This document shows positions 5,001-63,903 of a stretch of 64,000 nucleotides of DNA, piece by piece (the stretch's first letter is position 1; each line of letters begins with the position of its first letter). The notes under the pieces were generated by a model. The model was not told the DNA's origin. It ran no database searches and saw only the letters and a list, made by a program, of their open reading frames with translations. The DNA comes from Erodium maritimum (Eukaryota; Streptophyta; Magnoliopsida; Geraniales; Geraniaceae): assembly GCA_963921825.1 (NCBI GenBank), contig OY997594.1, positions 1,493,001 to 1,557,000 on the forward strand. The letters are read 5' to 3'. The translations under genes were made by a program, and so were the position numbers.

Positions 5001-6971
5001 AGAAGCAGATAGAACTTTGACGACCTGATATGGTAAATTATACATGATATGGCAAGAAGAATTAAAAAGCCAACGAGATGATGGAACTGAAACAGGAACG
5101 CTTTTAATGATCACAGAAAGCAAAAGAAGACACATTACCAAGCTATTGGCAGGATTTACTGAATGTCCAATTCCCTGGAAAAGCACTGGAGCCTGGGGAT
5201 AATTTATCAATAAATATTATCAGATTAAATATTATTGTTGCTATCTGCTAAATTTAGAATCCCATGGTCTATCATTGCAATTTGTTGATGTACACCTCGG
5301 CAGTAAAAAGCTTAATTGTGTACATAGATTAAGCCTCAACCTAGACCTATTTGCTTTTTGTGTATCAGTCGACTTCAGCAATGGCCTATATAATGGGCTT
5401 TGCTAATACAATCAACATCATTATTATACATCATTTCACATTTCTGTGAGATGCCACAGCTGGTATGGTCTTGGGTCTGTGTAAGAACTTCAAGCGTCAC
5501 ACTTTTTAGTCGAGTTTCAACGAAAAAATAAAAATAAAATACTAAAACATTTTGATGCTTTAAAATTTTGAAGACATTATAGAGAAATTACTATCACGTA
5601 AGGGAAAAGAGGCTGTACAGTATAGAAGATAGTGTTAAAACATATCTAACGACACCATAATTGAAATTGACACTTGTAATCAGACTACCAAGTATTAACA
5701 ATAACAATTATAGAGCTAGCCTTACCTCGATTTTCTTGCTTCCCAAAAGCACATCAGACTTAATCAGATCATCAGCAGCAACCAGTGTATGATCTCCTTC
5801 AGTATCTGAAACTGCATAGCTGGTGTGATCAATAACCAGAGCCGCAGGGTCCTGTACCAACAAAAACATGTGAGTAGTATAAAAAAAACTTAAATACAAT
5901 TCATATCGCAGAACTAATAGGACATAAACTTCAGAACCAGAATAAGTGGCTTGTTGGCCATTGCTCACTTCATCAAAATCAATCCCATTCTCAACCCCAA
6001 TCTCCCTAATCAAATCAGAAGCATTACTATCAGCAGCTACAATTAGATCATGGCCACTGTCAACAAACTCCAGTATAGCTGCTAGGTCAATGGCTCCTCC
6101 AAATCCTTCACAGTTGAATAAAGTATCAAATGTATATAATATCCGTAATACACAATTCAAATAATCATATAATAATACCCTCATCAAAGACAATTTTCGC
6201 GGACAGCAAAAATGGAAGGAAAAAAAGACCTTACAGCAAATTAACAAGCTAAATTCAAAACCTTGTTTGGTTACAGGGAAAATGTGAGGAATCACTAATC
6301 AGAATACGAATCTTAGAAATTCAGCATTATCAATTAAGCTAAGATTCACCTGTTCTTTTTCATTTTTGCACCATAAACAAAACAATAACATCAAAATCAT
6401 GTTTGGTTACAGGGAAAATGCTAGGAATCACTAATCAGAACATGAATCTTAGAAATTCAGCATTATCAATTAAGCTAAGATTAGTCTGTTCTTTTCATTT
6501 TCGCACCCTAAACAAAACAATTACATCAAAATCATGTTTGGTTACAGGGAAAGTGCTAGGAATCACTAATCAGAACATAAATCTTAGAAATTCACCATCA
6601 TCAATTAAGCTAAGACTAGTCCATTCTCATCATTTTCGCACCCTAAACACAACAATTACATAAAAATAACAACAATTTTCAGGAAATGAAACAAACTTAC
6701 GTTCAATGGTTGGGCAAAACAAGATCAACCCATCATACAAGTACCGGCCATATCTCTGCAGCCCGATCTTGGGATCATCGGCGAGCTTGAAGTCAAGCTC
6801 GAAACCGCGAGACCGGAGGGTATCGAAATAGAGAGAATGCGACGATTTGATGGCAAAGTCGTCCAGTAAGACGAGGATGCGACGATCGGTGGGGTGGTCG
6901 GGAGAGAAGGAGTGGCAGAGAAACGGTAAGATTTGGATGAGCGAGAAGAGGATCAAGAGACGACGAGACAT
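2006..6971 (-). CDS. DGL1: Oligosaccharyltransferase 48-kDa subunit (DGL1/OST48/WBP1 family)
   Basis: Subunit of the ER-membrane oligosaccharyltransferase that moves the lipid-linked glycan onto Asn of nascent secretory proteins; OST48 is needed for complex stability. Exons: 6701-6971, 5969-6105, 5726-5851, 5139-5192, 4911-5024, 4628-4683, 4508-4549, 3877-3952, 3652-3723, 3399-3524, 3173-3277, 2684-2767, 2006-2053. They sum to 1311 nt, 436 aa, almost the usual plant length. Visible features: N-terminal signal peptide ([18 protein letters not shown]), the luminal start [17 protein letters not shown], the conserved C-terminal stretch [17 protein letters not shown], and a last exon of 15 residues, [15 protein letters not shown], completing the single C-terminal membrane helix. 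The ATG at 6971 is the only one placed before the signal peptide. The last intron (2054-2683) holds a Harbinger MITE and the first holds a triplicated block. No broken exon was seen. Confidence 0.96.
2131..2352. mobile_element. PIF/Harbinger (Tourist-like) MITE in the last DGL1 intron
   Basis: The 222-bp element begins GAGCATCTCCAACGAGATT and ends, read from the other side, GAGCATCTACAATG. It is flanked by TAA on both sides (2128-2130 and 2353-2355), the 3-bp duplication typical of PIF/Harbinger. The right-end 14-mer is identical to the right end of the full-length transposon at 33772-35710. There is no coding capacity. Confidence 0.85.
6258..6665. repeat. Three tandem copies of a 135-bp unit in DGL1 intron 1
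   Basis: The motif TTTGGTTACAGGGAAA occurs near 6266, 6401 and 6536, a period of 135 bp. Each unit continues with AGGAATCACTAATCAGAA and AATTAAGCTAAGA. The copies differ by scattered substitutions, so the duplication is not recent. It lies between exons 1 and 2 and affects no exon. Confidence 0.85.
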
Positions 6972-7189
6972 GGCGGATTCGGATTTGGGGATTAGGGTTT
7001 TGGAGATGTGGACGTGAAAATGGATCGGGAAATCTACAGAGAGAGAGAGCTTCAGTGAGCCTCAGCTGGGAGAGGCGGAGTGTTGAGGTAGAGAGCCCAG
7101 AAGAAGTGTCTCTATTTGTGGTTTGGGACCTATAGAATGTGATAACTCCACTTAAACCCCCTCAAGTTTTCAGTTATATCGTCTTGGCC

Positions 7190-7580
7190 AATGTTCTAAA
7201 AATCCCGACTGGACGTCGCCTAGGCCTCATTTTGTGCTTAACCGACCCGACTAGGCGTATAGAACAATATTTGCATATTATAGTGACTAAATTAAAATAA
7301 TTAGATAGTTGTCCAGAGTTGTTCGATGTTGGTGATATTATGGATTGTACTTCTAAGTTGTTTGGTGTTATTTTTTAGGTATTTTAAATATTTGTTACCA
7401 TTTTTAATATAAGAAAGTTCATATTTTGGTTCTATATATAGTAATATATCTATTAAAAAAAATTAAAATAAAAAAAATACAAATCCGACTAGTCTCCGAT
7501 TAATCTCCGTCTAATCTCCAATTAATCCTCGAAAACCATAATTGTTCGATTAACGCTTAACAGCTTTTAGAACCTTGGTT
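7190..7580. repeat. MITE-like element with TTCTAAAAATC ends
   Basis: The left end reads GTTCTAAAAATCCCGACTGG and the right end, on the opposite strand, reads GGTTCTAAAAGCTG. The interior is rich in CGACTAG and CTAATCTCC motifs. A shorter relative with the same termini sits at about 46329-46448. Target duplications were not resolved. It lies in the spacer upstream of DGL1. Confidence 0.5.
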
Positions 7581-7650
7581 TTGGCACTATTTGTTTTGCA
7601 CCAATTGCATTTGCAGCCTAGGTATACTAAGTAGGAAGTATATAAAATCT

Positions 7651-8614: not shown

Positions 8615-11600
8615 TTACTCAGAACCGTCAGGAAAAGATTGCAGAGCATCCTCCTTCCCGTTAACGTAGAAATCAACGACAGCCCTCATCCTCGGGAGCT
8701 TATCGGGATGATAATTTACATGAACAATCACCGGCCTCATCTTCCTCAGCTTGCCGTCTTTCCTCACAGTCTTGAACAGAACCTTGCTGTTCATAAACAG
8801 ATAAAAGTCCATAGTCCTCATAGAAGCGTGAAGCCCGTCATACCCAGGATGTGAAGGGTAAAAGAGCTCCTCGTTGAATACAGCCTGATCCCAAGCCTTT
8901 TCCTTAGAAAGGCGATGAGCCACTCTGTCTAGAAGCTCGATGGAAGGCAGGGTCGGTCTGATGTAGAAGAAACCCGAGTTATAAACCCATATTCGCATCG
9001 TATGGGCATACCTGGCCCAACCCATTGCAGGCTCGTCGAATACATCGTCGTACCCGTAAGCAGTCATGTTGTCATGCCCATCGGTCATGGACTCCACGTC
9101 TGAGTCTCTGTATAAATGATCAAACGGGTTTTGCAAGTATATTATGTCAACGTCCGAGAGAAGAACGCTATAGCCAAGCTGCAAAAACTCTCTTAGGATA
9201 CGGAATTTCAATCCTGAAACGGCGTGGTTACCTCCTGTTTTCCCGATCGAGTCAATACCCTCGTCCGGGTCTCTCCTATAGACCGGAACGTCCTTGGACT
9301 TGCAGAAAGTAGCAATCTCATCGTCCAAAGCAACAACTAGGTAGTTCGGTATGCCCACGTTCCTGATGCTTGTGAACCAAATCTCCAACATCTCCTTTAC
9401 ATTCGAGTTGGCGAGTGCAACGATGAGCTCGTTGTGGAGAGCGACTTTGGCGAGTGTTTTGGCCAATCTCGGGTTTATTTGTTCATCGGGGAGGATTGTG
9501 GGGTTTTTCCTTAGTCCCTTCACAGTGCCAAAAGGCCCAGCTTTTTGCTGTTCACCCAATACGAATACTTGCTTTTGTGCATTGTCTTTGTTGTGTTCAG
9601 CTAATTGGAGCTTTTCGGTTAATTCACGAACCTGCTTCTTTAGTTCAGAGTTTTTCCGGGATATGGCCACAAACTCTGATTTCAACATGTTGAACCTTTC
9701 GGATGATACACAAGCTGTTGAGCCAACCTAGCAAGAAAATACATTAAGTTTGTGAGAGCCCTGTGTCTTTACATGGATATTAGCGATATTTAACAGTCCT
9801 GACAAACTTATATAAAAACATCCAAAGTATTAGGGATAATTGCAAAAAAGTACCCTATGATATTCATTTTTTGCAACCTGTAGCCATCTTCTTTGATAAT
9901 TGAAAAAAAGTATCCTAAACTTGTCTTTTTGTTGCAATTTGTAGAAAAACAACGATTTTACCCTTACAATTTAGATTTTTCTATAATAATAAGTAAAGAA
10001 CAAAAAAACTAAATTTTCATATCCCCTAATTTTCTTCCTTCTTGTACCGTATAAAGAAAGAGTAATAAAATAAAGGGATATAAAAATTTGGAATTTTTGT
10101 TCTTTAATTATTATTTTTAAAATTATAATGTTTAAGGGTAAAATCGCCATTTTTATACAAATTTATACAACGTGCAGCAGAAAACAAGTTCAAGTCCCTT
10201 TTTTGCAATTATCAAAAAAGAGGGCTACAAGTTGCAAAAAGGTAATACCTCAGGATACATTTTTGCAATTATCCCTAATTATTATCAACAATCATAATCT
10301 TGTATAAGTGGTATTAAAATAAAAAGAAAAAAATGATTTTTACAAGGCCAAAAGGACATATTAAATCCAAAACCAACAGTACATGTGACAATCGATTTAA
10401 ACGACGAGGGCGATATTTTTTGAAAAAGAATTAACTTAAAGTTATCCCGATTTAATAAAATGCCAATTTATAATCAAATATAAGAAAATTTGATATACAA
10501 ATGGCATTATATAACCTCACCAAAGAGTATGCATACAATCACTTGTTGGATAAGCTGATAAGCATATTTGAAGGTCCAGAAAAGTTGAACAGTAATCGAA
10601 TAAGTGAAGCAAGTAGTCCACCAGGCAGATCAAACACCATAAAAAATTAATTTTTAGGGATAATTGCAAAAACTTGCGGTGAACTATGCGTGTTTAGCAA
10701 ATACTATTGGTGAACATTTTTTTTTGAAAATGACATCCCCAACTATTTTCCGTCTGCAAATCCACTAATGTGGCTATTGTTTTTTCTGCAAAAAATCGAA
10801 AGTAACCATGCAAAAGTGTATATATAAGGGTTACAAATTGCAAAACACATATAATGTAAAGGGAAAAACTGTTATTTCCAAAAAAAATAAGTCACATGAC
10901 TAATTTCCGTTAAAGATAACATATTTGCAGACAGAAAATAGTTGGAGATGTCATTTCCAAAAAAAAAAAAAGGTTCACCGATAGTATTTGCAAAACGTGC
11001 ATGGTCACTGGCTCACTGCAAGTTTTTGCAATCATCCCTTTTTTTATAAGCTATGATACTACTTGCATCCAGAAAAATTATAGTGTATGTTACTAAGTCC
11101 AACTCGACAAATTTGCTTACACATTCTTTTGAGAATGTGTTTGACAAAGTTCATGTTGAGCTACCCACAACATGTTTACTCTAAAACTGAGTTCTTCCAC
11201 CCAGGTTCTCCCTTCTGAAATCAATAAATTATAATAAAACTAAGATTATCTTACAAACCCTATTCACATAACTGTTTAGCAATGAAACCAAACAGCATTA
11301 CAGGAAGCAACCCATCAACGATTTCCATAACAATGTTCTTCCCCATACTATAATCAAAGCAATGAAATTGAACTTGAACTCGAAATGGATCCGATATTAA
11401 ATAGTAACCAATCAACAATTTTCAACAACAATGTTCTTCCCACACTACAATCAAAGCAGTGAAATTCAACTTAAACTAGAAATGGGTCAAATATTAAATA
11501 GCAACCCATCAACAATTTTCAACAACATTGTTCTTACCATACTGTAATCAAAGCAATGAAATTCAACTCGAACTCAAAATGGGTCAAATATTAAATAGCA

Positions 11601-12709
11601 ACCCATCAGCAACAATGTTCTTCCCATACTATAATCAAAGCAATGTAATTGAACTAGAAATGGGTCAAATATTAAATAGCAACCCATCAACAAATTTTCA
11701 ACAACAATGTTCTTCCCACACTATAATCAAAGCAATGAAATTCAACACGAACTCGAAATGGGTCAAATATTAAATCACAACCCATCAACAATTTTCAACA
11801 ACAATGTTCTTCCCACACCACAATCAAAGCAATGAAATTCAACTCGAACTCAAAGTGGGTCAAATATTAAATAGCAACCCATCAACAATTTGCAACAACA
11901 GTGTTCTTCCCATACTCTAATCAAAGCAATGAAATTGAACTGGAAATGGATCAAATATTAAATCGCAACTCATCAACAATTTTCAACAACAATGTTCTTC
12001 CCACACTAAAATCAAAGCAATGAAATTCAACACGAACTCGAAATGGGTCAAATATTAAATCACAACCCGCCAACAATTTTCAACAACAATGTTCTTCCCA
12101 CACTATAATCAAAGCAATGAAATTCAACTCAAACTCAAAGTGGTTCAACTATTAAACAGCAACCCATAAACAATTTTCAACAACAATGTTCTTCCCATAC
12201 TCTAATCAAAGCAATGAAATTGAACACGAACTCGAAATGGGTCAAATATTAAATCACAACCCATCAACAATTTTCAACAACATTCTTCCCACACTACAAT
12301 CAAAGCAATGAAATCGAACTTAAACTCGAAATGGGTCAAATAGTATCTAGCAACCCATCAACAATTTCCAACAACAATGTTCTTCCCACACTACAATCAA
12401 AGCAATGAAATTGAACCTGAACTCAAAACGGGTCAAATACTAAACCCCAACCCATTACAGAAAAAACAACCAACAATGCTAATTTGTAATTTCTAGAGCT
12501 ACAGTTCAGTAGTGGAGCCTAACCTGAGAACTGGATTTGACGAGCCGGAGCCTCTGGGTCGAGGAGCTGGGAGCGGAGTGGAAGAGGCCGTGAGGGTAGA
12601 AGAAGGCTAAGGCGCATCCGAGAAGGACTCCGACGGCGACGGCGACGGCGATTCTCGGTAAGCGCGGTGGCTGCGAGGTGTTTCGCCTCGACGGCGCGCG
12701 ACCCATCAT
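8615..12709 (-). CDS. RRA: Extensin arabinosyltransferase, RRA type (GT77)
   Basis: Family GT77 Golgi enzyme; Arabidopsis RRA1-3 add an arabinose to the short chain on hydroxyproline of extensins. Exons 12524-12709 and 8615-9727 join as SSSQ|VGSTAC, giving 432 aa, the normal family size (about 430). Visible parts: short cytosolic tail, one signal-anchor helix (about residues 18-36, [19 protein letters not shown]), a Ser-rich stem, a short coiled coil (about 75-115), then the catalytic domain with the DxD motif in [14 protein letters not shown] and the conserved [20 protein letters not shown]-like block, here [13 protein letters not shown]. The end [11 protein letters not shown] is typical. 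Two ATGs open the frame (12709, 12706); either is possible. The single 2.8-kb intron is packed with two MITEs and a minisatellite. Which RRA paralogue this is cannot be settled by eye. Confidence 0.94.
9833..10276. mobile_element. Mutator-like MITE (GGGATAATTGCAAAAA family) in the RRA intron
   Basis: Ends are GGGATAATTGCAAAAAAGT and, inverted, GGGATAATTGCAAAAATGT. The two halves are largely complementary along their length. Flanking 9-mers (aaagtatta and taattatta) agree at seven positions, compatible with a decayed 9-bp Mutator-type duplication. Relatives lie at 10661-11037, 15036-15450, 46110-46515, 46850-47263 and 60605-60750. Confidence 0.7.
10661..11037. mobile_element. Second MITE of a related subfamily in the RRA intron
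   Basis: It begins GGGATAATTGCAAAAACTTG and ends with the inverted GGGATGATTGCAAAAACTTG. Internal sequence differs from the neighbour at 9833-10276 but is again palindromic (TTTGCAGACAGAAAATAGTTGG against CCAACTATTTTCCGTCTGCA). Target duplication is unclear. Confidence 0.65.
11290..12450. repeat. Minisatellite of about 12 units (87-98 bp) in the RRA intron
   Basis: The motif CAATGTTCTTCCCA (with small changes) recurs near 11331, 11429, 11526, 11613, 11705, 11802, 11899, 11990, 12087, 12184, 12281 and 12375. Most spacings are 97 bp, with some of 87, 91 and 92. Each unit also holds ATCAAAGCAATGAAATT and GGGTCAAATATTAAAT. An 81-codon open frame inside the array is only repeat read-through. The array lies about 70 bp downstream of the exon 1 donor. 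Confidence 0.95.
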
Positions 12710-13810: not shown

Positions 13811-16800
13811 TCACTTCTCAATGCCCTGCTGCAAGTACTGTATCAAGTCGTAGCCCGCCGTCGTCCACTTGTTGTAGGCGTCGGTGCACGTGCGGATCAT
13901 GAAGTTGGCGGCTTCGCGCTCGCTCATCTCGGGATGGAACCTCTTGCGGAGATTGCCAATGGGGTCGCCCCTGCTGAAGCAGGGCAGCCCGCTGTCGATC
14001 ATAAGCAATACCGTGTTTAAGATCCCGTCCATGTACCGCCGGGCTGAGAGGTATCCCTTCACACACAAGCTGCAGAGAAGACTGGTTACTTATGTCACAA
14101 GTGCATTTGGTATACGTTTGAAGGAAATAATCTTACAAGACTTATTAGGAGCTAGCAACGGTCGTTTTTTTTTATCATTTTAAAATCCGAAATCCTGTTT
14201 TCAGTTTGGATTTTCGGACAAATACCAAAAATGATTTCTATCCCAATATTATGACAAAAAATCACATGCAATCCAAAAAGATAAAAAATGAGTTTAACTT
14301 AAAAGAAACGGGTTTGACTCAAATTCCCAAATTTAGGCTTTAACTTAGTAGGCCGGGTTTTCTATTGAAAAAAACGAGCAAAAGACTACTTTTTTTCCCT
14401 TTCAATTTGATGGTTTTTTGCTCACCCCTAAGAGCATCATCTCCAATGGGATTAGCCAAGACTTACCTCACAAACTGGTACCACGAGTCGCTCTTCATAA
14501 CCCCAGACGGGTCTATTAATTGTGTCATTTCATGGCTCAGCTTGAAATGCGCACTCTCAAACCGCATATTATTGCCAGGTGAAGTTTCCAGTATGAAACC
14601 AAAATCAATATGGACAAGCCTTCCCTCACTGCAATCACACGAATCATCAAAGGAGTGTCAAGAGTTGAGATTAAACAAACTCGTGATCTCGAAGTAGTGT
14701 TAAAATCACTAAGAAGGCGTACTTGTCGAAAAGAAGATTGCCGTTGTGCCTATCCTTGGGCTGAAGTAAGAGACTAGCAACTGCATACCCAGCACTGCTA
14801 ACAATGAAGTTCTCACGTGCAGCTTCAAAGGTAGGAGAACCGATGGCCCCGTAGTCCTGTTGAAAAATCTCAAGCAACCCACCGTCTGTAGTCTCTCCCA
14901 TCTGACTTCTGCTGCGTGTATTGGGAACCACCTAAGACATAAGCCGAGGATGCAGATTTCAGAGAATGGTCAACGGCACAGACATTACAAGTAATCTTCT
15001 CTTGATACTACTAGCTCAGGAAATATTCCAAGAAGAGGGATGATTGCAAAAAAGTACCCTGGGTATTCACTTTTCTGCAACTTGTAGCCATTTTTTTATA
15101 ATTGCAAAAAATACCCTGAACTTGTCTTTTCATTGAACTTCGCATAAATTTGTCTCAAAATGACAATTTTACCTTTGGAAATCTAATAATAATAATTGGA
15201 GAACAAAATATCCAAATTTTCATATCCCTTAAATTTCTACACTTTGTACGGTACCAAGAGGAAGAAAATTAAGGGATATGAAAACTTGATTTTTTGTTTT
15301 TTAAATCTAAATTGTAAGGGTAAAACTGTCATTTTTACAAAAACTGCAACAAAAAAGATGGGTTCATTGTATTTTTTTGCAATTACCAAAGAAGGGCTAC
15401 AAGTTGAAAAAAATGAATACCTCAAGGGTGCTTTTTCGTAATTAGCCCCAAGAAACATGAATGATTGGAATACAAGCTCACCTCAATTATACCTCTTTCA
15501 GGACCTGTTGGTAGAACACCATAGGGAAACAAATAGAGATGGAGTCCGATAGCTCCAAATGCATCTCTAAGAAGCGATATGACTTGAAGAGCAAGAACAT
15601 CTTGTCGACAATCATCTCCAACCTGAAATAAAATAATTGATTTAGTCAAACCACTTACACTGGGGACTGGCGAGGGCCATCTTGAGGCGCATCAAAACTT
15701 GCAGGTAAGATGTGTGAGCACCTACCTTAAAATATTGTCCACACAACTATAGAATGCATTATGAATTGCCCACACAATGTTATGACCATGCGTGATAGAT
15801 CGCGTTATGGGACCAAGGTAGGAATTCATATTGATTCCAAGGCTTCGCGTGGGCGAATCCTTTATCTTCTTCTTCTTCCCAATCGTAACAATTACATGCT
15901 CGTTATAGAGGGAACCCGAGGACCTCGTCGAGAGAGACCAAAGTATTCTTATAATTCTTAGTCTACTTTATTCATGTAACTCTCGGGCCGTACGGTCCGT
16001 AACACACAACTATATAATGCATTACGTATTTCCCACAAATCTATTGAATCCGCGAAGAACTGCCCAGACCATTCATTCTGAACATTCATCACAGATTCTC
16101 CCTGTTACGTTTTTCTAACAGAAGTCGATAGACAAAACTTTAGTGTAGCCTAAAAGCATGGACAAAACTTTAGGTATTTTTTCGTTTGTGGAGAATACTT
16201 TAGGGTAGTTTTTGACAATTAACCCAAACTCATAAATTATGAAATTTATCACCATGATGTACTGAAGATTGCTAATGCAAACATGTAATTGATCCTAATC
16301 AGTTGACATGGTTTGGAAAATAGTTTCCTTAAATCTACCCAGAATCCATTATTAAGAATAGTATGTAAACAAATCAACAATTTACCTTGAAAATGCAAGC
16401 TTGGGGCTTTACATTACGGGGATCCCCATCTTTGTCAATCACATTAAATGTGATCATGATGGGAACTTTTGCTGCTGACTGTAAGGGAATTCCACTATCA
16501 ACACGAATTCCCCTGACAAGCTTCTCAGGGGCAGTTGGTAAATAAAGATCATCTCCATTCATTTCAATTTTCTCCAACTCTCTGTAGTAGAAATTAGTTC
16601 ACAAATCATCTTCAATTGCTAGATACAGAATGTAATGTTATAAACAGCCTGATATTGTTAATTGTAAACCAATTTGGGCAATTAGATCAAGTATAATAGA
16701 TGGTCCAGATATTTTAAAAAAATCATCGATGACATGAATCGTAAAAATCATTAATGTTATAACCGAATACCCATAATTTTGAACTTGGTATTCCAAAATT

Positions 16801-19800
16801 TGATTCCGTTCTGGATGTCCAGAATTTTGAACTGGGTATCCAAGAATTTAATTTCGTTCCCGAATGTCCTCAATTTTGAACTTGGTGTTACAGAAATCAT
16901 ATGGTTTGTAGTTTAAGTTTGGTTTGTACCTAGAGAGAGGGAGTTTGGAAAGTTACCTACGAATACCAGCTCTGCGTTGTTCCTTCGGAAGAGGATAGAG
17001 TACGCCAGAAATAGATGTAACTTTGTCAAAGAAATCAAATTCTCTTGTAAATACATCAAGAGCTTTGGTGGTGTAACCATCAATAATACGCTGCCTAAGA
17101 AGCGGCAAGATTGCTTGGAATGCAGCATTCTAAAACAAACGTGAAAATGCATACACGTTAATGAACATGAAATGACAGGCTATAAAAGTAAGAGCATACA
17201 ATTGCAGCAATTCAAACACCGTGTACTAACCCTTATACAAAATTATGATGATTCCAGATGCAAAAACATCTCCTCAGTAAGCGTGCATGCGTGAGGTGAT
17301 GTGTTATTGGGTAATTAAATATTTACACCCCTGCTTAAATTTGCCAACATCTAATAATTCCAATTTTGAATTTGAAAATTTGCACATTCCACAAGTTTTG
17401 CTACAAGGTTTTGTAAATTTAACTACTGTATTATCTTAATATAGATTTTGCGCCGCACACCAATGCAATCAAAAGAAATGTCATGACCAAGACAACTCAT
17501 TTTTAATGTTCCATATGAACAGTGAGTACTGTTGCCTTTTTTCTTAATCTACAATGGATATACTTTTGTTACATCCATGATTTAGATATTTATACACAGT
17601 TATTCATGTTTCAGCTTACTTAGGTGTATCAATTTTAGTATGAATCAATGACAATTAGAAAAACAAAAGACCTCCATACCCAATATGATAAACAAATTGA
17701 CAGTAGCCAAGAGATAAAAAGAAAACACCAAGTATAGTACCTTCGCAGAGTTTTCATTCTCAGTCTCTTCGGTTTCGCCCTGAAATCATACAATCGATGC
17801 TTATTATATTGAAAACAATATTTATACAAAAATATATCACCAGCAGAGAACAAAAATAGAATGAAAATGTAATGCAATCACGCCATGTGAATATAAATCA
17901 TTTTACACACCTGTAGAAACCATATCAATATATGGGAGAATAAGTTACTCCTTTGAGCAGCTCTAAGCAAATATCCTTCAACAAGTTTCTGTAGTGGGAT
18001 GAAAATAGATGAAATGCATCAGGAAATATAGTACTATTGAGGAGAGATATTCGATACACAAAATCACGTCATCTGATGCTCTGGGCACAACACCAACCCT
18101 AAATACATTCCTGTCTCTGTATTTGTTGTTGTATTGATATCAAATTGCACTGCCTTGGGCAGGTTAAGGTATGTGCAACACATGTAATAACTAATTTAGT
18201 AAGTTTCAATCTAGAAGGATAAGCTATTAGGCAAAAGGACCTAGGTAGTATGGGAAGCAGTCTAAGACACCCAACATGATCCATGTGTGACACATGTAAC
18301 TCTAGAAGGTCACACACAAGGGCCATAAGACACAAATTGCTTTGCAAATAGTGGGTGTGCGCCTTGTGCGCTGGTTCAAAATAAAACTTCAGGGCCACAA
18401 CCTGCAATGATTTGAAGGTATGGGTACCAACCGGCAAAAATGTCAGTACATGGTACCTTTATGCCATTATCCCTTAAAATATGCCAAAAGTCGAGATTGG
18501 TTTGCAATATTTCAAGCAAGCCCAACTATGACAAAATTGTAGCACAAACCTGCTGGTGGGTGCGTCTTCAAAGTTCAGAAATGAAAAATATATGAAACGG
18601 CTGTATATATAGTCTTAACACACCTCATCATCATATCGGAGAGCCTGCACTAGCTGTGGCATGAAGAAGGTTACTCTTTCTGGCGGATATGACTCTAAAA
18701 CCCTAAGAATATATGCCATAACTCGTGGATGCCCCTTGTATGCTGGAGTGAGGAACCCAAGAGCTTGTGTAATTGAGCAAGGTGCCCAGTGAGGCAATTG
18801 CTGCAGAAGAGAAGAATTTTCTTCAACTGCCTTCGGGGTGACAAAATAAGGCAATGCTTCAGGAATGCTGCGGACGTCCAATATACGTGACTACAAAAAA
18901 GATATGTAACTGTCAAATAGAGAAGGATATATGACGGGGATAAATATAATATTCTCTACATAAAACAAATTAGGAAGCAATAAAATAGAACGCCAAAATA
19001 AGCACAAATGAAACAATGCAATATTTATAATACATGAACTATAAATTATGAGTCAGACATGAACTCAAATTTAATACATTGCAGGAAAATACAGACTTTT
19101 ACTCTTATGCACTAATAGAGAAGTCAGGTACCAGAACAACAGATATATGATGACAAAAAGATATCGAACTTCAAACTAGAAACTCAATCCTTGCTCCATC
19201 TTAAAATGTTGCCTGCACTGTGCAAGCATACAATGGCAATCGCATTTGATCGTATATGGTAAGGATCAAGCTTCTAACTAAATTGATAGATATCATCTTA
19301 TAATACAGATGTTATTACTAATTTGATTTTGACAGAAATATGCTACTATGTCATTGTTCTTGACACCACATAGTTCCACTAAGATGTTGTTCTCACACTG
19401 GGAAGGGGTTGATCAAATGATTCATATCCCATCAGAGGAGGAGACAGACGGAGGCAGAGATATCACGGAAAGGTAGCACAGCCATAATACTACTATGGAT
19501 ATTGATTACACAGGCTTTTAAGGCAAGAAGTTAGTAACTTTATTTTCAGATGTCTCTCATAGCCACTTCCCAACCTTATGTGCCTTAGTAGTGTTCACAA
19601 ATCTTTCTAGTTTCCAATATTCTTTCATTACCCATATAACTCTGGTCTGTACTTCGTTCTCCAACAGTCAAATAGGTTATTTAAAAACTGTCCTTCGACC
19701 AACTTATAACTGCAATAAGCAAATACCTGAACCAACTGTGTTATTTCGGCCTTCAAATGGGAATTTGTTGGAAATCTAGAGGACAAGGAGAAAGCAATAC

Positions 19801-25800: not shown

Positions 25801-28800
25801 CAAGAGCATACACACTGCAAGCAAATGCCAAGAAGTAAAATGAGAATGCATTCTAGAAGAGCTCATAATGCAGCAATGAAGATATGTAAGCACAAAATCC
25901 GTTAATACATACTTCGCAAACATGGACGAAATACGAAATAAAAGTGAATCATGCAAGAATCGTTCAAGATCAACTTGAAAACTTACAAGGGGGGGAGTCC
26001 CTTGAGCAATACACTGAACTGCAGAAGACCAATCTGCATTCCACATATATGGTCCAACCACAGCTTGCAGGGGAATTGTTTCCGTGCTTCCCACAGACTT
26101 TGATGATTTCTGAATGGGAGGTGCTAAGCCAAAAAGAGCAATATAAAACCAAAAATTGCGAAATAACTTCAGTAGTGAGGGTTCCACATCTAGAGTAGGG
26201 TCAAAATCAGAACATATTTGAGCAACAGCAGGAAGTAGAGGACCCAGAAAATCTGCTCCACTACTGCAATAGTTTGAATATAACAGACATGGAATCACTA
26301 GATCCATTCAGAAAAATAAAAACTATAAGCAGTACTGTATATTGTAAAGCCATAAGACTACATAATACCTTCCACTTGTGGACTCAGCAGCCAGGCCAAC
26401 ATCTGAGCACAAAGATAGCAACCTGTGACGAAAATCTGAACGCAACTTAGTACTAGTCAGACCACTAGCAATCAGAAGAAACCCTGCAGGAAGAGTCTGG
26501 AATGTGATAGAAGCAGTGAGCATCATTCAATAGTTTACATTGTCAAGCAACTAAACAACAAAATGATTCATGGTTAATAGATACCTCAACACGTTCTGTG
26601 TTGGCCTCAGAGGGCAATTTTTTGTTTCCAGCGGACCCCATACTTGAAACTTTACTCAAGTAACTTCTTGTCATCAGAACAACTGTCTCACGATATGACT
26701 TCTCAAAACCCAAACTAGCCATGCGAGATACAGCATCAAGAAGCTACAGTAAATGATCAAATTGGTTGAGAGACCAAACTGGTATAAACAAAGGATGCCT
26801 CTAGAACTATCTTGCTTAGTAGTGTTAAACGAAACAATCTAATACAAGGATGAAAACCCCTTAATCAGCAAATATATAATCTAAAGATAATGGTTCCATA
26901 CTCGAAGTCTCAATAAACTAGGAGTTGAAGCATCACCCTCTTCTAAGCTCTCAATATACAGAGGCAGTATCATATCTACCACTTCAGATTTATTGACAGC
27001 AACATTCAGATCAGCAAGCAAGCGTATAATGTTAAGCTGCACAACAGGGACTGCCTGTTTCTCCTTATCAACCTGAAAGTGGCGCGATTAGATAAGAACA
27101 CAACAACTTGAAAGCAAAATAAGTAAGTAAATATATAGATATTTCCAATTGGCACAAAACACAATTTGACAGGTATAAACCTAAAGCATATACAGTATTG
27201 GATTTAGCAACCCACTGTGACTAACAGTTTTCAAAAAGCTATTCCAGGACACTAATATTGAATATATGATGTGAATCCCTTAGGAAAAACATCTGCATAT
27301 GACAAATAAAATATTCATTCTTATTTACTTTTGTAAAAAAAAGGTTCCTGTAAAGCTTAAAAGCAAACAGGTCAGCAATATATGCAACCACGCTGTATGT
27401 GAATTTGTATATTGGGCTTCAAAGAGAAGCCAAAATGATAAAATGAGGGGGTGGAGATGAGAATGGTTACTGGATTTGTGATAACACATGAAATGATAGG
27501 ATTAGGAATGAAGCTATGTACTGCACAAGTTGGGGTGGCTACAACTGAAAGATAAGATGAGGGAAAACTGACTAAAATTGTTTGGGCATCTGTACTGTAA
27601 GGAGATTAGTACTAGATAGGACAGAGCACGGAAGGATAATACTTGTGGACTGTGGAGGATCGCAAATAGTTTTTCTTAAGGATTCATGTAGCCCCAACTT
27701 AGTTTGGGAAGGGCTTTATTATTGTTGTTTGTAGAAAGTTCGGACTAAGAATATGTCACGCATTTACATCAAGAAACTTTTGAGCAGCAAAACATTAATA
27801 TATATACATGTCAAACTCAACCAAGCACATAATGAACGTGCATGCATATGAAGAAAAAAAATTACATGTAAACACAACCAGACACATAATGTATATGTAA
27901 CTGACACTTGTGTTCTTGTATAATGGATATGCAGCCATCATTCAGTAACCAAAATAGTAGTATCGTTCAGATAATATGGAGGAACCACATGAAGTTCATA
28001 TTACTGGAAGACTTCTAATATGCTCTGCTGAGTTTAAGGGAGGAGAAGCCTACCTGTTCATCAAATTCGTTTCTTTCACGGATACATTGAGCTAATCCCA
28101 TGATAAATGTGTCCACAGGAGCCCGGTCCTTGCTCCAGCCAGCTTCAATTATCTCTTGACTAGTCTTCAGGACACTCACAAACATGGCTCCCTGGCTGCT
28201 GCTCCAAGTATCTTCCTGTTATGAAGACATCATACAAAATTTAATATTATGAACAGAAAAGAAAAAATCCCAATTTCATCCCCAAATAAGCACCTGTGCA
28301 CATGCAGACAGCACAAGGGGTTTCAGGCGAATGAGCAAAACTCGAAGTGGCTGACCTCCTCTAGTAACAGCAACTTGTGCAACCCCAGCTAGCAAAGAAC
28401 TAAAGAGCTCTTCACAAAGTCTCAGCTTTCTCCACGCAGAGAGGAGACATGCTTCGGCAGCATCAATTAGCAATGCTAGAGTCTCAAGCACCAGCCTTTT
28501 AGATGACTTTCCATCAGAATCAAGGGATACGAGGCTCTTACTTATCAACTTTGCAACAGCCTTATAAGTTGAAAGTTTTGTATTAATTCTGCTTTTTAAA
28601 GATGCTCCTTGTTCAGTCCAATCCCGTTTCCGTAGCTGCCCATATAACACACTACTATCATACCATCTTTTTCTAAATTCCATTTCTTCCAGAAATTCAT
28701 ATTTAAATCTTGGGTTAAATGTACAAACCTACCCTTATGTATTGGTCACAAACAGTAAGCTACCCAAAATTTAAAAGTGTTAAATGAAGGACCTTATGTT

Positions 28801-49600: not shown

Positions 49601-51014
49601 AGTGAAATATTAAGCTATATGTCTAATTATTATGATCCTACTCTACTGTCACTTTCTTGGCCCAGAAGACGACAAAGCATAGTGTTCTATCATCAACGGG
49701 AGTTTAACTCATTACTTTGTATCTTCTGGGAGATACCGTTATTAACAAGTCTTTACTGACGTTTGATCCTCAAATACACGCCGTAAAGGTGGGGGTTATC
49801 GGTAACACATTGTCACCTTTCGTTATTCATCAAAAAATCACGGATTCCGTCCATTTTATTCCAAAAAAAAACACTGATAAATGAGAGGTGATAGTGTGTT
49901 CCAACTATCACCTATTCAGGGTGAATCCAGGGTTTTTGATTGATAACGAAAGACGATAGTGTGTGTTACTGATAACCCCTCACTTTTAGGGGGGTGTTTT
50001 TGAGAAACAAAGGTCGTCGAGGGGATGTAAACAACGTTTTCCCAATCTTCTACCATCAAAATTATCGTCAAAACAATAGCCAAGTTATTTCAGTCAAACT
50101 AAATTCTTATACAGGAACTCCAATCTACTTAATGAGTAAACATGACCAACAACCAACACACATTCTACACCCACAACCACTTCCCATTCAAAACATCAGA
50201 CAAATAAGGGTCTTTCACCCCCAAGATAAATAAGGTGAACAGATTTCTCTATCTCTAATCACGGATTCAGCACTAGAACTCATGACCGAGGACTGCAACA
50301 CATCCTTCCCCGATCAACTACATAGAATTCAATAACTTTTCAAGTAACTACAGAATTTCTCCAACTCAGTCCCCTACTCAATTTTCATTTGAAGCACAAC
50401 TTGCCAGACAATTACCAAACCATGCCCGATTCCAAAACAATGAAAGATTCAGCTAAAATCCATAATCTGATGAACTAACTAACAGCATTAATCAAAACCT
50501 TTTACCTTCCCGGTCAACTACATAGAATTCAAGAACTTTTCAAGTAATCACAGAAATTCTCCAACTAAGTCCCCTACTCAATTTCCATTTGAAGCACAAC
50601 TTGCCAGACAATTATCATTTTCAAAACAGAACAAAGCAACAAAAGATTCAGCAAAACACCATAATCTCTGATGAACTAACAGCATTAATCAAAACCTTTT
50701 ACCTTCCCAGTGTGGCCTTGAAGAGTCCTGCAACACACAAGATCGTTTGGCTCGAACGTGACCGGACTTCGCCCATGCGCCCGCCCGTAGCCGGCAACTG
50801 AAAAAATCAAAAATCAAAAATCAAATCCACCACACAACCAAACAGATCGGAGAAAACACCTAACAAAAATTTCCAGTTCCAGAAACAGAAAGAAGCAAAA
50901 TCACAGACCGTCCGTGTCCAGCTGCAGCGACCGCTTCTGCTTCAGCCGCTCCCTGAGAGCCTCGACGGTCTCGGCGGCCGCTACGTGGCGCTCCTTCAGC
51001 TCGACGACGGACAT
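46687..51014 (-). CDS. AGB1: Heterotrimeric G-protein beta subunit
   Basis: Canonical plant G-beta, which works as an obligate dimer with G-gamma at the plasma membrane in hormone, immunity and growth signalling. Exons: 50909-51014, 50703-50797, 48836-49260, 48056-48413, 47273-47386, 46687-46722; 1134 nt, 377 aa, exactly the usual plant length. The N-terminal coiled coil ([20 protein letters not shown]) binds gamma. Seven WD repeats follow, with blades such as [60 protein letters not shown] and [15 protein letters not shown]. The protein ends GGNRKVI. The start [10 protein letters not shown] is the family start. All five introns are intact at their borders; four of them are loaded with MITEs or duplications, which makes the gene much longer than its coding need. 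Confidence 0.97.
46850..47263. mobile_element. MITE of the GGGATAATTGCAAAAA family in the last AGB1 intron
   Basis: It runs from CGGGAAAAATTACAAAAAAT to TTTTTTGCAATTATCCC. The arms are complementary (TTTGATAATTGCATCATC region against ACAATTATCAAAGAAGAGGG). It fills nearly the whole 47273-to-46722 intron and its right end is only about 10 bp from exon 5. Confidence 0.7.
47438..47850. mobile_element. MITE of the TTTTTGACAATTAACCC family in AGB1 intron 4
   Basis: The left end GGGTTTATTGCTAAAAACTA and right end GTAGGTTTTGACAATTAACC match the termini of the intact copy at 61089-61408. Internal motifs TTGTGGGCAATTCATAATGC and ACATTTTTCTAACAAACG are also shared. It is diverged and somewhat longer than that copy. 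Confidence 0.6.
48470..48735. mobile_element. MITE of the GGTGACAGTGTGTT family in AGB1 intron 3
   Basis: The left end GGTAACTTCAATAACACCCC mirrors the right end GTGGGTATGTAAATGTAGAA only loosely, but the inner arms are clear: ACACTTGTCATCTTTCG... and CCCGATTTATGCAGAAAATG against TTTGCATAAATCGGGGCAAC. No coding content. Confidence 0.6.
49760..50045. mobile_element. MITE of the GGTGACAGTGTGTT family in AGB1 intron 2
   Basis: The arms are GTGGGGGTTATCGGTAACAC with CATTGTCACCTTTCGTTAT on the left and AACGAAAGACGATAGTGTG with TACTGATAACCCCTCAC on the right, a clear inverted pair. The right terminus ATGTAAACAACGTTTTCCC equals, inverted, the left terminus of the fragment at 61550. Confidence 0.65.
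50310..50630. repeat. Tandem duplication (offset about 198 bp) in AGB1 intron 2
   Basis: The block GTCAACTACATAGAATTCAA, then AACTTTTCAAGTAA, GTCCCCTACTCAATTT and TTTGAAGCACAACTTGCC occurs at about 50314-50425 and again at about 50511-50620. The downstream pieces CTGATGAACTAACAGCATTA and AATCAAAACCTTTTACCTTC are also doubled, the second just before the exon 2 donor. Exon 2 itself is single. Confidence 0.85.
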
Positions 51015-55800: not shown

Positions 55801-57055
55801 ACAAGAACACCGAATAGGATTCAACACCATATCGATTGAATTCACAAGAAACAAAACAGGCATAGGATACTAATGAATCACGCTTCTAACAGGTTCCACA
55901 TTGCATCTAGAACCTAATCTACATGTACTTCATCATGTCTAATGAGTTCCCTCTGAAATTCACAGTACTGGCAGCTAAAACGAACAGAAGACTGCACCAT
56001 AACTGATGCAAGATTTTCAAAATTATGATAGGTAGGCTGTCTAAAATTTGTATATATACGCAGATCACTACACGAACTGGCCACTGTCAATGGGATCAAT
56101 AAACATTTTGCTTTCCATATAGTGGTACCAACAGCACAAATAGAAGTTTCGTATTGATACATCAATCACCAATATACTTCCGAACTGAAATTCCATCAGA
56201 TCTTATCCGAACTTAGGAAATCTACACATCAATACTACAAACAGGCAGCATTGCAATAAGCTTCGTCCAATCTATACAAATCGCTCATACACAACATGCA
56301 TTGATCAATTAACATAAAAAAACACAATCAAGTCCCCAGCTCACATTTCCATAAGCAATCAACTGACAAAACAAAACCTCCCTCGCTCACTGATTACCAC
56401 TCACATCACACTTGTACTGATGAACTTTAAGTAAGTTTTGAATTGATACATCATTCACCAATATACTTCCAAAATGAAATTCCATCAGATCCTACCTAAA
56501 CTTCGAAAATCTACACATCAACACTACAACACAGACAGCATTGCAATCAGCTCCATTCAATCGACACAAATCGCTCTTACACACAACATGCATTGATCAA
56601 TTAACACCAAAAACCACACAATCAAGTCCGCAACTCACATTTCCACAAGCAAACAAATCTCATTTACTGATTACCACTCACACCACACTCATACCGACGA
56701 ACTTCACGACCTCGAGCTCAAATCCGAAACAAAACAGCATCAGAAAACAATAAACTCAACCTACCTTCGTCTGCTTGACCTGGACCAGAAGATCCCTCTG
56801 CGCCTCAAAAGCCTCTTTCAGAACCTTACTCGCATCCAGAACCTGTCCGCCGATCTTCTCCGCCGCACTCAAAACCCTACCCAAATACTCCGCCGTCAAA
56901 TCGTCGAACGCCTTAATCGCCGGATCCGCCGCCGCCGCCGCCAAGCCATCGTCTCCTCCGCTTCCCACGGCGGATCCCTCGGCCTCAAACTTCGCCGAAA
57001 CCGACTCCAGCCGCTCCACCGCCGCCTCAAGCCGTCGAATCAGCTCGCCGTTCAT
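52882..57055 (-). CDS. CAP1: Adenylyl cyclase-associated protein (actin-recycling CAP/SRV2)
   Basis: Recharges ADP-actin monomers with ATP and helps cofilin disassemble filaments; needed for root hair and pollen tube growth. Exons: 56765-57055, 55628-55796, 55469-55533, 54842-55163, 54619-54766, 54418-54527, 54252-54307, 54100-54156, 53716-53859, 52882-52968; 1449 nt, 482 aa (Arabidopsis CAP1 about 476). Order of parts: N-terminal oligomerising motif (ELIRRLEAAVERLESV), helical folded domain with SALAWIAYTGKDCG, a proline-rich hinge (APPPPRPPP) with a WH2-like region, and the C-terminal beta-helix (CARP) starting about WVVENQVGQKNLVIDNC. The end FEDGRFVTTPVSHSGG is typical. MNGELIRRLE is chosen as start because it aligns with the family; an in-frame ATG 11 codons upstream (57088) is an alternative. 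Intron 1 contains a duplicated block. Confidence 0.96.
56150..56650. repeat. Tandem duplication (offset about 286 bp) in CAP1 intron 1
   Basis: The block ATTGATACATCAATCACCAA to ATCAAGTCCCCAGCTCACAT (56153-56345) is repeated with about 10 per cent changes at 56439-56645. Shared anchors include CAACATGCATTGATCAATTA and TTGAAATTCCATCAGATC-like sequence. The right copy ends about 115 bp from exon 1. Confidence 0.88.
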
Positions 57056-57949: not shown

Positions 57950-58285
57950 CTCATCTTTAGCAATCCAAAGTTTTACAACGTTCAATAAGAGTCCTTACGT
58001 TTTGTTAACACACCTTTGATACCCCTTATAAATTGGTCATATATCATTTAATACCCTTACGTTTTGTTAACACACCTTTAATACCCCTTATAAATTGGTC
58101 ATATATCATTTAATACCCCTCATGTATTGGTAACAGAACAATAAAATGCCTTATGAATTGGTCACTGATCATCAAAATGGCGTAAACTTAACCAAAATTT
58201 TGTCCATTGTGTTACCAATACATAAGGGGTACTAAATGAGTGTTACCAATACAAAAGGGCTACTAAAGGTAGTTAACCCTTCTTC
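57950..58285. repeat. MITE-like element with internal direct repeats
   Basis: Two direct copies of a unit with CCTTACGTTTTGTTAACACA and CTTATAAATTGGTCATATAT lie on the left. The right side has inverted relatives (TTACCAATACATAAGGGGTA). It is related to 13255-13515 and to the 28712-29026 Mutator-like MITE through TATTGGTCAC and CTTATGAATTGGTCAC motifs. The right end reads GGTAGTTAACCC; the left end is not sharp. Confidence 0.6.
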
Positions 58286-61500: not shown

Positions 61501-63903
61501 GACTTCAACCTTGAACTCCTTCTCTGCCTGGCCCCTATAAATAGAAGGGAAAACGTTATTTACACCCCCTTTGACTATATATATATATAAAAAAAAAAAA
61601 CTAAAGGTGAGGGGTTATTAATCAAAAAACCCGGATTTACACAGAATAGGTGATGGTTTTATTGGGAACACACTGTCACCTTTCTCATTTATTAGTGTTT
61701 ACACAGAATGATAGCAAATAAAATGTCATTCCTTCATTACCATTTTCCCTAAAAATGCAAGTGACTTACGGAATATAGGTTCCCTATTATGATGGAATTA
61801 TTTCTGTTCAAACTAGCAAGCTATGCACGGAAGTTTCAAGAACAAGCAAAAGCTCATAGCATCAAAACTTTACCGGAATTATGGATACTATGACGATGAC
61901 CAAATGGACTATAATTGGAAAAAGATTTAACATGATTAAGAAAAGAACAAAAGTAAGTTTGATAAGATAAAATATCAAAGTAGAAAGCTGAGAAAGTGCC
62001 AAATAATCATATTGATGGTGATAAAGAAACAAACTAATAAAGCACAAAGTGACCCCTATAGATAGGATTATAACAAGACAATTGCATTCCTTTATATCCA
62101 TTTCCCCCCCTAAAAATGCAAGTGATTTAAAGAATATAGATTCGCTATTATGATCACCATCACAATTCCTGGAACTATTTATGTTTGAACTCACAAGCTA
62201 CAAACAAAAACTTATTTGAAATTCATAGTCTCGGGAACAAGCAAAAGTTAGTCGTAACAGAATTTTACCAGAATTACTGGTACTGTAATTGGGAACAGAT
62301 TCACATGACTAATAAAGCTGAGAAAGTGCCAAATATTAATACTGATGACGATGATAAAGAAACAAACTAATAATAGTAATAAAGCACAAAGTAAGGCCCA
62401 ATTTTACTTCCCCGAGTACTTCCTAAGGTAAATAATTGATTTGTTATGTGCTAATCGAACTGCTACCGACAAAACAATACGGCCAGGAGGATGGAAGCTG
62501 CTTGGGCCATGGCTTCTCCATATTACCCGACCAAAGTACAAGACCGAATATAACAAGTTTTTTCATTTCTTGATTTGCATCATGGGCTAAACACGAGCCA
62601 AGATCATTACATACAGTTAGAGGATACAACCAAAATATGATCATTGCATAGATCTGAGAAAGATATAGAAAAATATCTGCATCTGTTTGTTTGGACAGAA
62701 AATGATGTATCCAAGAAAAAATGTCATGAGAAAATAGTGCTGCAAGTTTAAATACTCTAAAGTCTCAGCCAATAACTTGAAAGAACAAAATTCCAGACAA
62801 ACGGGCCTAATTTAAAACTAGATGCATTTACCGAAAATCTGTTTGTTTGAACAGAAAATTGAAATGTTTTGTCCAGAAAATACTAAAAACAGCTCACATT
62901 TCCCTTATACTTGGTTGGTTTGGAGGGAAATTGGGGAAATTTTAATAGAGAAAAGCCATAAATTCAGCACTTCAAAAAATGTGAACAAAGGATGATGAAC
63001 TTAGTAGAGCAAGCAAATTTTCTCGGAAAATATTTTCCCCAAAGCCAAACAGACCTGAACTATAGGAAAATTGGGAAAGTTTAACAAAGAAAAGCAATAA
63101 ATTCAGCACTTCAAAAAATGTGAACAAAGAATGATGAACTTAGTAGAGCAAGCAAATTTTCTCGGAAAATATTTTCCCGGAAGCCAAACAGACCTGAACT
63201 ATAGGTAAATTCAGCATTTCAAAAAAATTGAACAAAAAACGATGAAGTCAGTAGAAAAAATTCAACCAACCAAATTTTCTCGGGAAACATTTTCCCGGAA
63301 GCCAAACAGAGCAAGCAATGTTAATTTTCCAGCTTACTTGTTGTTAAGAAGCTTCTTCACAGCCGCAACAGACCCGTCCGGCAAAACACCTCTGTAAACG
63401 ACGCCGTATCCTCCCTCTCCGATCACATTATCCTCCGCGAAGCCACGCGTCGCAGCCTCCAGCTCCCTCAAGCTGTACCACCTCCCCCAACCGATGTTCT
63501 GAGCAACCTCCGCCGACGCCTCGCTGCAGCTCCCTCCCGAAACGTCGTCGTCCAAGGCCTCCCGGAGCACGACCGCCAATTCGTTCCTCTTACCGCTCAT
63601 CTCTTCCTCAACATACACATTGTCGACTCTGGCACAACTCTCGGAGCAATCCAAGCCCTTGATCTCCACGATCTCCTTCGTCACGAGCCGGATCGAGCCG
63701 GAACTGTGCTTCACGCGCATCCTCCGCTTCCTGGAGCTCCGGCTCACGCGCATGCAGAGGTAGACGAAGATGGCGGCGAGGACGAAACAGACGACGAGTG
63801 CTCCGATGACGGTGTAAACCTTCAGGTTGAGGATTGAGGTCTCTGACAAGAGCTTCCGGGGGAGGGATTCGTCTCCGGTGGAGGTGTTTCCGGCGGCCGC
63901 CAT
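58543..63903 (-). CDS. Receptor-like Ser/Thr protein kinase without ectodomain (At4g34500/At1g01540-like)
   Basis: Single-pass membrane kinase of plant RLK/Pelle type; its substrate is not known. Exons: 63338-63903, 61430-61534, 60852-60974, 60355-60525, 60134-60263, 59363-59572, 58543-58662; 1425 nt, 474 aa. The extracellular part is only about 25 residues, then a helix ([21 protein letters not shown]), a basic patch, an acidic juxtamembrane segment and the kinase, introduced by [18 protein letters not shown]. Motifs: glycine loop [11 protein letters not shown], Lys in [38 protein letters not shown]. The residues for catalysis are all present. The tail ends [10 protein letters not shown]. 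Subfamily features ([29 protein letters not shown]) fit the group with At1g01540 and At4g34500. Introns hold two Harbinger MITEs, one Mutator-like MITE, two MITE fragments and two tandem duplications. Confidence 0.93.
58963..59193. mobile_element. Worn Harbinger MITE in the last intron of the kinase gene
   Basis: The left end GAGCATCTTCAATGGTTTGG and inverted right end GAGCAGCCCCCATGGAGGG enclose 231 bp. Inner motifs GGCGAATAGCCATATGTCAC and GTGACAAGTGGCCAC match the copies at 2131 and 59634. The 3-bp flanks (CAA and TAG) no longer match TAA, so this is an old insertion. Confidence 0.65.
59634..60108. mobile_element. Harbinger MITE carrying a 198-bp insertion
   Basis: TAA flanks the element at 59631-59633 and 60109-60111. 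It starts GAGTATCTCCAATAAGATT and ends, inverted, GAGCACCTGCAATGTAGGG. Compared with the 222-bp sister at 2131-2352 it holds an extra block at 59786-59983. The block is bounded by the 11-bp direct repeat GGGTGGGCGAA (59775-59785 and 59984-59994). It lies in the intron between exons 59363-59572 and 60134-60263, with its right end about 25 bp from the latter. Confidence 0.82.
60605..60752. repeat. Truncated MITE of the GGGATAATTGCAAAAA family
   Basis: Only the right arm is left: GGGGTAAAATCGTCATTTTG, GAAGAGGGCTACAAGTTG and TTTTTTTGCAATTATCA. The left arm is absent. Confidence 0.6.
61089..61408. mobile_element. Mutator-like MITE with perfect 9-bp target duplication
   Basis: The 320-bp element opens GGGTTAACTGTCAAAAACTA and closes with the inverted GGGTTTATTGTCAAATACTA. 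Both flanks are TATAAGTTA (61080-61088 and 61409-61417). The right half repeats GTTTGTGGACAATACTTTAG and the middle holds TAATGCATTCTATAGTTGTG. It ends about 20 bp from exon 2 of the kinase gene. It is the reference copy for the elements at 15719-16224 and 47438-47850. Confidence 0.9.
61545..61705. repeat. Truncated MITE of the GGTGACAGTGTGTT family
   Basis: It begins GGGAAAACGTTATTTACACC, the inverted terminus of the copy at 49760-50045, and includes GGTGAGGGGTTATTA and GGAACACACTGTCACC. The right end is missing. A short TA repeat followed by an A-run lies at about 61580-61603. Confidence 0.55.
61735..62400. repeat. Tandem duplication of about 360 bp in intron 1 of the kinase gene
   Basis: AAAAATGCAAGTGA, CGGAATATAGGTTCCCTATT and AACAAGCAAAAGCTCATAGC in the first copy (from 61751) recur as AAAAATGCAAGTGA, AGAATATAGATTCGCTATT and GAACAAGCAAAAGTTAGTCG in the second (from 62112). 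The pieces GAGAAAGTGCCAAAT and GATAAAGAAACAAACTAATA are also doubled. Divergence is moderate. Confidence 0.82.
62925..63330. repeat. Three tandem copies of about 135 bp next to exon 1 of the kinase gene
   Basis: The block AAATTCAGCACTTCAAAAAA, AATGATGAACTTAGTAGAGC and GCAAATTTTCTCGGAAAATA occurs at about 62960, 63100 and, more diverged, 63205. All end with CCAAACAGA(CCTGAACTATAGG). The array stops within about 20 bp of the exon 1 donor. Confidence 0.88.

Follow-up and report, generated by a model that had tools for sequence, protein, structure and literature searches.

Tandem duplications in this part of the Erodium maritimum genome are concentrated in first introns. Among 28 modelled genes they occur in 9 of the 28 first introns (18.8 kb in total) but in just 1 of the 141 later introns (63.4 kb; Fisher 2.5e-7), and their clustering near the first-intron start hints at a zone, lying some hundreds of bases beyond the start codon, that is either prone to duplicate or prone to keep duplications. 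The earlier note had named, as the result that would overturn its view, the disappearance of the excess across the genome once intron length was corrected for; run here on 28 genes rather than genome-wide, the correction leaves the excess standing (length-weighted binomial, 4.2e-6).

First and later introns compared

The window is the whole 64,000-nucleotide stretch under study (C7:1493001-1557000 in a 763-Mb assembly). It was analysed with 100 kb of flank on each side and with a 56-kb segment of C3 that adjoins, and was selected for, the homeolog of DGL1. The resulting working set comprises 28 genes and 169 introns (28 first, 141 later), divided among the window (8 genes), the C7 flanks (12) and C3 (8). 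Models were obtained with a self-trained gene finder and then corrected by hand, and Pfam tests of identity were applied to the 8 window genes and to 8 flank genes; exon borders are approximate in PERK, late PI4K, PFK and NTC2 and at the LOX start codon. Throughout, a first intron is the first coding intron, 5′UTR introns lying outside the models. Excluded from the 28 genes are the fragmentary FRO-like genes of the right flank, a DUF247-like gene with no clear intron, NDUFV1 (a single coding exon), and retrotransposon and low-scoring models; the C1 and C9 homeologous introns, available as partial sequence, also stand outside the set.

Tandem duplications (TDs) were detected by self-alignment of each intron, with TRF as a second detector; introns shorter than 80 bp (9 of the 169) were scored negative unscanned. 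Self-alignment separates ten introns, at 136-1168 bits, from all others, in which no candidate of 30 bits is found. All ten show adjacent head-to-tail copies beyond chance. Slippage on low-complexity sequence is unsupported as a source, since none of 480 shuffles (three for each of 160 introns) reached 30 bits. The arrays and related features of the window are collected in Table 1.

Table 1. Repeat arrays and related introns of the eight window genes (window coordinates)
Gene and intron	Position	Strand	Unit and copies	Detection	Pfam match
DGL1/OST48, intron 1 (6106-6700)	6243..6667	(-)	135-bp unit x 3.1	TRF and self-alignment	OST48_N (exon 1)
RRA-type glycosyltransferase (RRA), sole intron (9728-12523)	11306..12455	(-)	97-bp unit x 12	TRF and self-alignment	Nucleotid_trans (exon 2)
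COPG, intron 1 (38963-39897)	39134..39799	(+)	~245-bp unit x 2.7	TRF and self-alignment	Adaptin_N (later exon)
AGB1, intron 2 (49261-50702)	50304..50711	(-)	197-202-bp unit x 2	Self-alignment; missed by TRF	WD40_Gbeta
CAP, intron 1 (55797-56764)	56144..56704	(-)	277-289-bp unit x 2	Self-alignment; missed by TRF	CAP_N-CM
Receptor-like kinase (KIN), intron 1 (61535-63337)	62926..63310	(-)	118-139-bp unit x 3	TRF and self-alignment	Pkinase (later exon); exon 1 without match
PI4K, intron 1	28791..28951	(-)	31-bp repeats inside dispersed MITE; not a TD		PI3_PI4_kinase (late exon); exon 1 without match
PERK-like kinase, intron 1	36391..36917	(-)	No TD	Self-alignment	Kinase (exon 2)
PI4K, late intron	16763..16886	(-)	48-bp array, 2.6 copies	TRF only	
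PERK-like kinase, intron 2	32958..33103	(-)	60-bp array, 2.5 copies	TRF only	

Within the window, the earlier note had assigned such a duplication to the first long intron of seven of the eight genes, the PERK-like kinase being the exception. We find one in intron 1 of five genes, and in six when AGB1 intron 2 is counted; seven is not reached. The arrays it described in DGL1, RRA, COPG, AGB1 and CAP, and the three-copy array in KIN, are all recovered by TRF, self-alignment or both, and the units it called unrelated indeed give no cross-hits when compared with one another. Two of its arrays did not withstand scrutiny: in PI4K the array consists of 31-bp repeats belonging to a dispersed MITE family and fails the TD test, and a second kinase array, given as 2 x 360 bp, dissolves into short, interrupted matches of 31-70 bp at lags of 333-395. 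The RRA array is real, but in a gene with a single intron its being first is trivial. Arrays in later introns are rare, as had been stated; TRF finds two short ones (Table 1), that in late PI4K, which had been reported, and a second in PERK intron 2. These are the later-intron TRF arrays with a period of at least 35, and both fail the self-alignment test.

The imbalance is found both inside the window, with TDs in 5 of 8 first and 1 of 66 later introns (Fisher 2e-5), and outside it, with 4 of 20 and 0 of 75, respectively (Fisher 0.0015; length-weighted 0.0018). The four further genes, all in the left C7 flank and identified by Pfam, encode a DEAD/DEAH-type helicase (HEL), a lipoxygenase (LOX), a DUF3537 protein and an FAD monooxygenase (FMO); the helicase and lipoxygenase models predate sight of their TDs. 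The C7 flanks alone give 4 of 12 first versus 0 of 58 later introns (p=5e-4), and the C3 segment has TDs in none of its 8 first or 17 later introns. When comparison is confined to introns of collapsed length of at least 250 bp, TDs lie in 8 of 21 first and 1 of 80 later introns (p=7.9e-6), or 3 of 14 and 0 of 48 outside the window (p=0.0096). Random placement stratified by gene gives P=2.9e-6 for 9 of 10 TDs in intron 1 (4.2e-4 outside the window and 0.004 in the window alone). TRF as detector yields 7 of 28 versus 2 of 141 (p=4.9e-5), or 6 of 28 versus 2 of 141 once the MITE array is removed (p=2.8e-4). An array of 25 bp x 11.5 at 85808-86093, within a fragmentary FRO-like gene of the right flank, may occupy a later intron; scoring it as a later-intron TD gives, with approximate denominators, p=7.6e-7 overall and 0.005 outside the window.

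First introns are also the longer class here, with a median of 530 versus 339 bp for later introns, and 488 bp with arrays collapsed. This accords with the general rule that first introns are longer (PMC2518113), with the difference that TDs explain just part of the gap.

Position, composition and relatives of the arrays

The arrays begin 0-171 bp 3′ of the 5′ splice site, a bias towards the 5′ side relative to random placement within introns (combined p=2e-4) that is driven by AGB1, KIN and RRA. Counted from the ATG, the ten TDs start between +217 and about +600; the LOX start codon is probably ~195 bp further in than the modelled exon border, and its TD would then move from +596 to about +400. 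The intron sequence located at +200 to +600, 5.84 kb in total, contains every one of the ten starts, and the other 73.8 kb contain none, the zone having been set post hoc. The first kilobase upstream of the start codons is free of TD midpoints, and three fall 1.0-1.5 kb upstream; open chromatin by itself is therefore insufficient as an explanation.

The single later-intron TD, that of AGB1, deserves separate mention. Intron 1 of this gene is only 111 bp long, and intron 2, its first long intron, opens at +312. The TD sits in intron 2, and this one case suggests that how far an intron lies from the gene start may matter more than its rank. The duplication begins at the 5′ splice site of intron 2 and takes in the last few bases of exon 2, such that the splice site itself has been copied: near-identical donors, with GT at 50702 and 50505, lie 197 bp apart.

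Duplicated introns are G-skewed. Over the first 300 bp of the coding strand, with arrays collapsed, their median skew is +0.31; the corresponding values are +0.12 for the remaining first introns (p=0.010) and 0.00 for later ones (p=1e-5). As a sequence proxy for R-loops, the skew agrees in part: at least 0.2 is reached by 7 of the 10 TD introns, with KIN, FMO and LOX weakly skewed (0.09-0.14), and by 6 of the 19 TD-free first introns, the DGL1 and COPG homeologs among them. Because such introns reach it too, skew is at best a contributory condition. It can, moreover, precede duplication, as four of the five unduplicated homeologous introns examined—DGL1, COPG (two) and AGB1—have skews of 0.25-0.45; the kinase homeolog, at 0.08, matches its C7 partner (0.10). 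The skew thus seems inherited and older than the duplications. It may also accompany TDs in general, as those outside gene models have an absolute GC skew of 0.17, versus 0.11 in random windows (p=0.008). CpG observed/expected, at 0.57 in arrays and 0.58 in later introns, lends no support to an unmethylated zone.

Homeologous blocks at C3:2.50-2.56 Mb (DGL1, PERK, COPG), C9:60.33-60.35 Mb (AGB1, CAP, kinase) and C1:102.79-102.80 Mb (COPG, AGB1) are relics of genome duplication, and allow the arrays to be placed in time. Homeologous introns of DGL1 and COPG are 68-69% identical. Copies within arrays have a divergence K of 0.03-0.28, differ by up to 23% and are unequal in length. By this comparison the TDs are younger than the genome duplication and of differing ages. 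The spread of K suggests a continuing process. The unit is unrepeated in the C3 homeolog of DGL1 and in the C3 and C1 homeologs of COPG, and no TD is present in the portions examined of the C9 homeologs of AGB1 and the kinase. The CAP homeolog on C9 has, in the same intron, its own threefold array of ~247 bp; no similarity between this unit and the one on C7 was detected.

A genome-wide search with eight of the ten units (all but HEL and LOX) indicates that the units are local DNA and undispersed, in keeping with an origin in place. The RRA, CAP, DUF3537 and FMO units have no other copy in the genome at E<=1e-5, and those of DGL1 and COPG recur only in homeologs. The AGB1 unit matches its homeologs and has five short matches around exon 2 and the beginning of intron 2; the KIN unit matches one homeolog and has two short matches, one of them 39 bp within the array.

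How first introns may come to hold the duplications

The reading we consider best, at somewhat less than even confidence, is that TDs are made by repair of nicks or breaks in transcribed DNA close to the promoter and persist wherever this DNA is intronic. The promoter-proximal, transcribed and often G-skewed stretch would suffer closely spaced nicks or staggered breaks, for example where nascent RNA forms R-loops. DNA synthesis over two offset ends during repair, followed by end joining, could then copy the intervening stretch—the adjacent-nick route—and later unequal exchange could add copies. The product would be purged in an exon and survive in an intron, so that duplications would accumulate in first introns and lengthen them. 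We count in its favour the first-intron enrichment, the 5′-side position, the G skew, the in-place origin of the units and recurrence at the same intron, as the CAP homeolog bears its own unrelated TD.

Precedents exist for several of these steps. In rice, TDs are the commonest insertions, are enriched at 50-200 bp and have been attributed to adjacent-nick repair, their share declining from 70% of events to 5% by 200 bp (PMC7971508). Mouse and human cells yield TDs when breaks with 3′ overhangs are filled in (PMC8355091), and G-rich motifs on the non-template strand at the 5′ end of first introns are associated with polymerase pausing (PMC10030826). The duplications described here resemble the small TDs of rice in being head-to-tail local copies, with 7 of the 10 units at 72-139 bp, within the size range enriched in rice. 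They differ in copy number, which reaches 12, and in that the COPG, AGB1 and CAP units, at 197-289 bp, exceed the main range in rice, a point against the repair route. Small TDs are also reportedly products of nick or break repair in work by Vaughn and Bennetzen in 2014 and by Schiml et al. in 2016. Against a promoter-proximal origin stand the 21 TD loci that lie outside gene models, the C3 segment, empty in all eight first introns, the weak skew of KIN, FMO and LOX, and the short extra matches of the AGB1 and KIN units. Immunoglobulin switch regions offer a further parallel: they are intronic, tandem-repeated, G-rich on the non-template strand and located just past a promoter. The likeness is one of analogy only, with no relation in sequence or known function.

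The main rival holds that TDs arise everywhere, and that those multiplying sequence for intron-mediated enhancement (IME) are retained when they lie no more than ~1 kb from the transcription start, because a higher dose raises expression. We regard this as rather unlikely. In Arabidopsis, introns placed 218 nt past the start codon, or 292 nt further along, are active in IME, and those at 1095 nt or more are inactive (PMC6760150); the TD starts fall within this working range, counted from the start codon rather than the transcription start. Dose matters in that system, where 6 or 11 copies of a motif gave 13- or 21-fold enhancement (PMC6760150). An Arabidopsis model in which high G and low A in first introns push towards the high-expression class (PMC8157754) likewise brings to mind the arrays here, which are rich in G and T. 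GATCTG is commoner in the units (3 in 1.5 kb) than in later introns (8 in 61.9 kb), and the COPG array contains the full motif, TTNGATYTG, three times. On sequence grounds, then, the arrays are IME-like in zone, in composition and, for COPG, in a repeated motif. The full motif is absent from 9 of the 10 first units, COPG being the exception, and CGATT shows no clear enrichment. The Arabidopsis model gained little predictive power from distance to the transcription start (PMC8157754), the array copies differ by up to 23%, and unduplicated homeologs persist in the same genome. Weighing these points, we consider the damage zone the likelier source and retention for IME a real rival; diverged arrays fit either.

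A regional accident, in which a cluster on one stretch of C7 is taken for a genome-wide rule, is improbable. All ten TDs do fit in ~136 kb of C7 (-73.1 to +63.3 kb, window coordinates), with nothing in the C3 first introns, and five of six homeologous introns, some examined in part, are free of TDs. Against it, the later introns of the same C7 stretch and flanks have 1 TD in 124, and the CAP homeolog carries its own TD on C9.

Still less probable is pure tolerance, under which TDs form evenly and are purged for splicing reasons from exons and later introns but not from first introns. A scan of the C3 segment together with 264 kb of C7 gave 32 TD loci, of which 9 are in first introns, 1 in a later intron, 1 in an exon and 21 outside gene models; densities per kb are 0.48 for first introns, 0.016 for later introns and 0.11 outside gene models. 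Later introns do fall below DNA outside gene models (p=0.013), as tolerance predicts, but first introns exceed it (p=3.7e-4), and little purging is expected there. Later introns also evidently tolerate insertions, because dispersed-repeat blocks are nearly as dense in them as in first introns (0.62 versus 0.75 per kb; 17% versus 23% of bases). Tolerance further leaves the 5′-side position unexplained.

The idea that arrays arrive as repeats within inserted MITEs holds for PI4K but is very improbable for the ten counted TDs, and we reject it there, as sequence with at least two dispersed copies in the DNA compared (~320 kb plus four further loci) makes up 0% of each, and in the genome the DGL1, RRA, CAP, COPG, DUF3537 and FMO units match their own site or homeologs only.

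Returning to damage and repair past the promoter, a wider proposal can be put forward, as a possibility held more loosely than the mechanism itself: that a narrow duplication-prone zone ~0.2-0.6 kb past plant start codons coincides with the G-skewed, IME-active stretch, copies itself head to tail, lengthens first introns and can raise enhancer dose. DNA damage tied to transcription would in this way become coupled to how expression levels evolve. The damage zone, if true, would give a supply-side answer to why first introns are long and rich in enhancing content. The AGB1 TD, and homeolog pairs of similar skew in which one member is duplicated and the other is not, provide natural experiments for setting origin against retention. 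A literature search, in its best-ranked matches and mostly without subscription papers, returned no report of TDs concentrated in first introns. The one genome-wide plant survey among these matches, of tandem repeats in genes, describes more repeats in 5′UTRs, near gene ends and towards intron ends (PMC3887541). Those gradients are like ours in their enrichment near gene ends and intron ends; they are unlike ours in that the units are at most 50 bp, and the term 'first intron' is absent from its main text.

Other repeats in and around the window

Several further repeats lie near genes. On C7, an array of 238 bp x 2.9 at -76923..-76219 precedes the coding exon of NDUFV1 (the 51-kDa subunit of complex I), perhaps within a 5′UTR intron, and one of ~110-120 bp x 5 at -82543..-81944 is located 1.1-1.7 kb before the start of the NT-C2 gene. 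Repeats of 40-51 bp occur downstream of DGL1 at 1023-1466 of the window.

Dispersed elements are also present. The MITE family with internal repeats of ~31 bp occurs in both orientations at window positions 13293-13503, 28791-28951 and 57956-58227, and periods of 31 bp turn up again in the flanking DNA. Two other dispersed elements, ~300-350 bp long, occupy 49739-50046 in the AGB1 intron and 10700-11055 in the RRA intron; about 40 places were scored for each, out of 989 and 1493 candidates, respectively. The PERK-like kinase gene (window 31037-37401) has a long intron 2, at about 32.7-35.9 kb, containing open frames that we take to resemble PIF/Harbinger transposase, and its C3 homeolog model is shorter than the C7 gene. 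In the right flank of C7, 91786-96303 (window coordinates) is, by appearance, a Ty3/gypsy-like retrotransposon.
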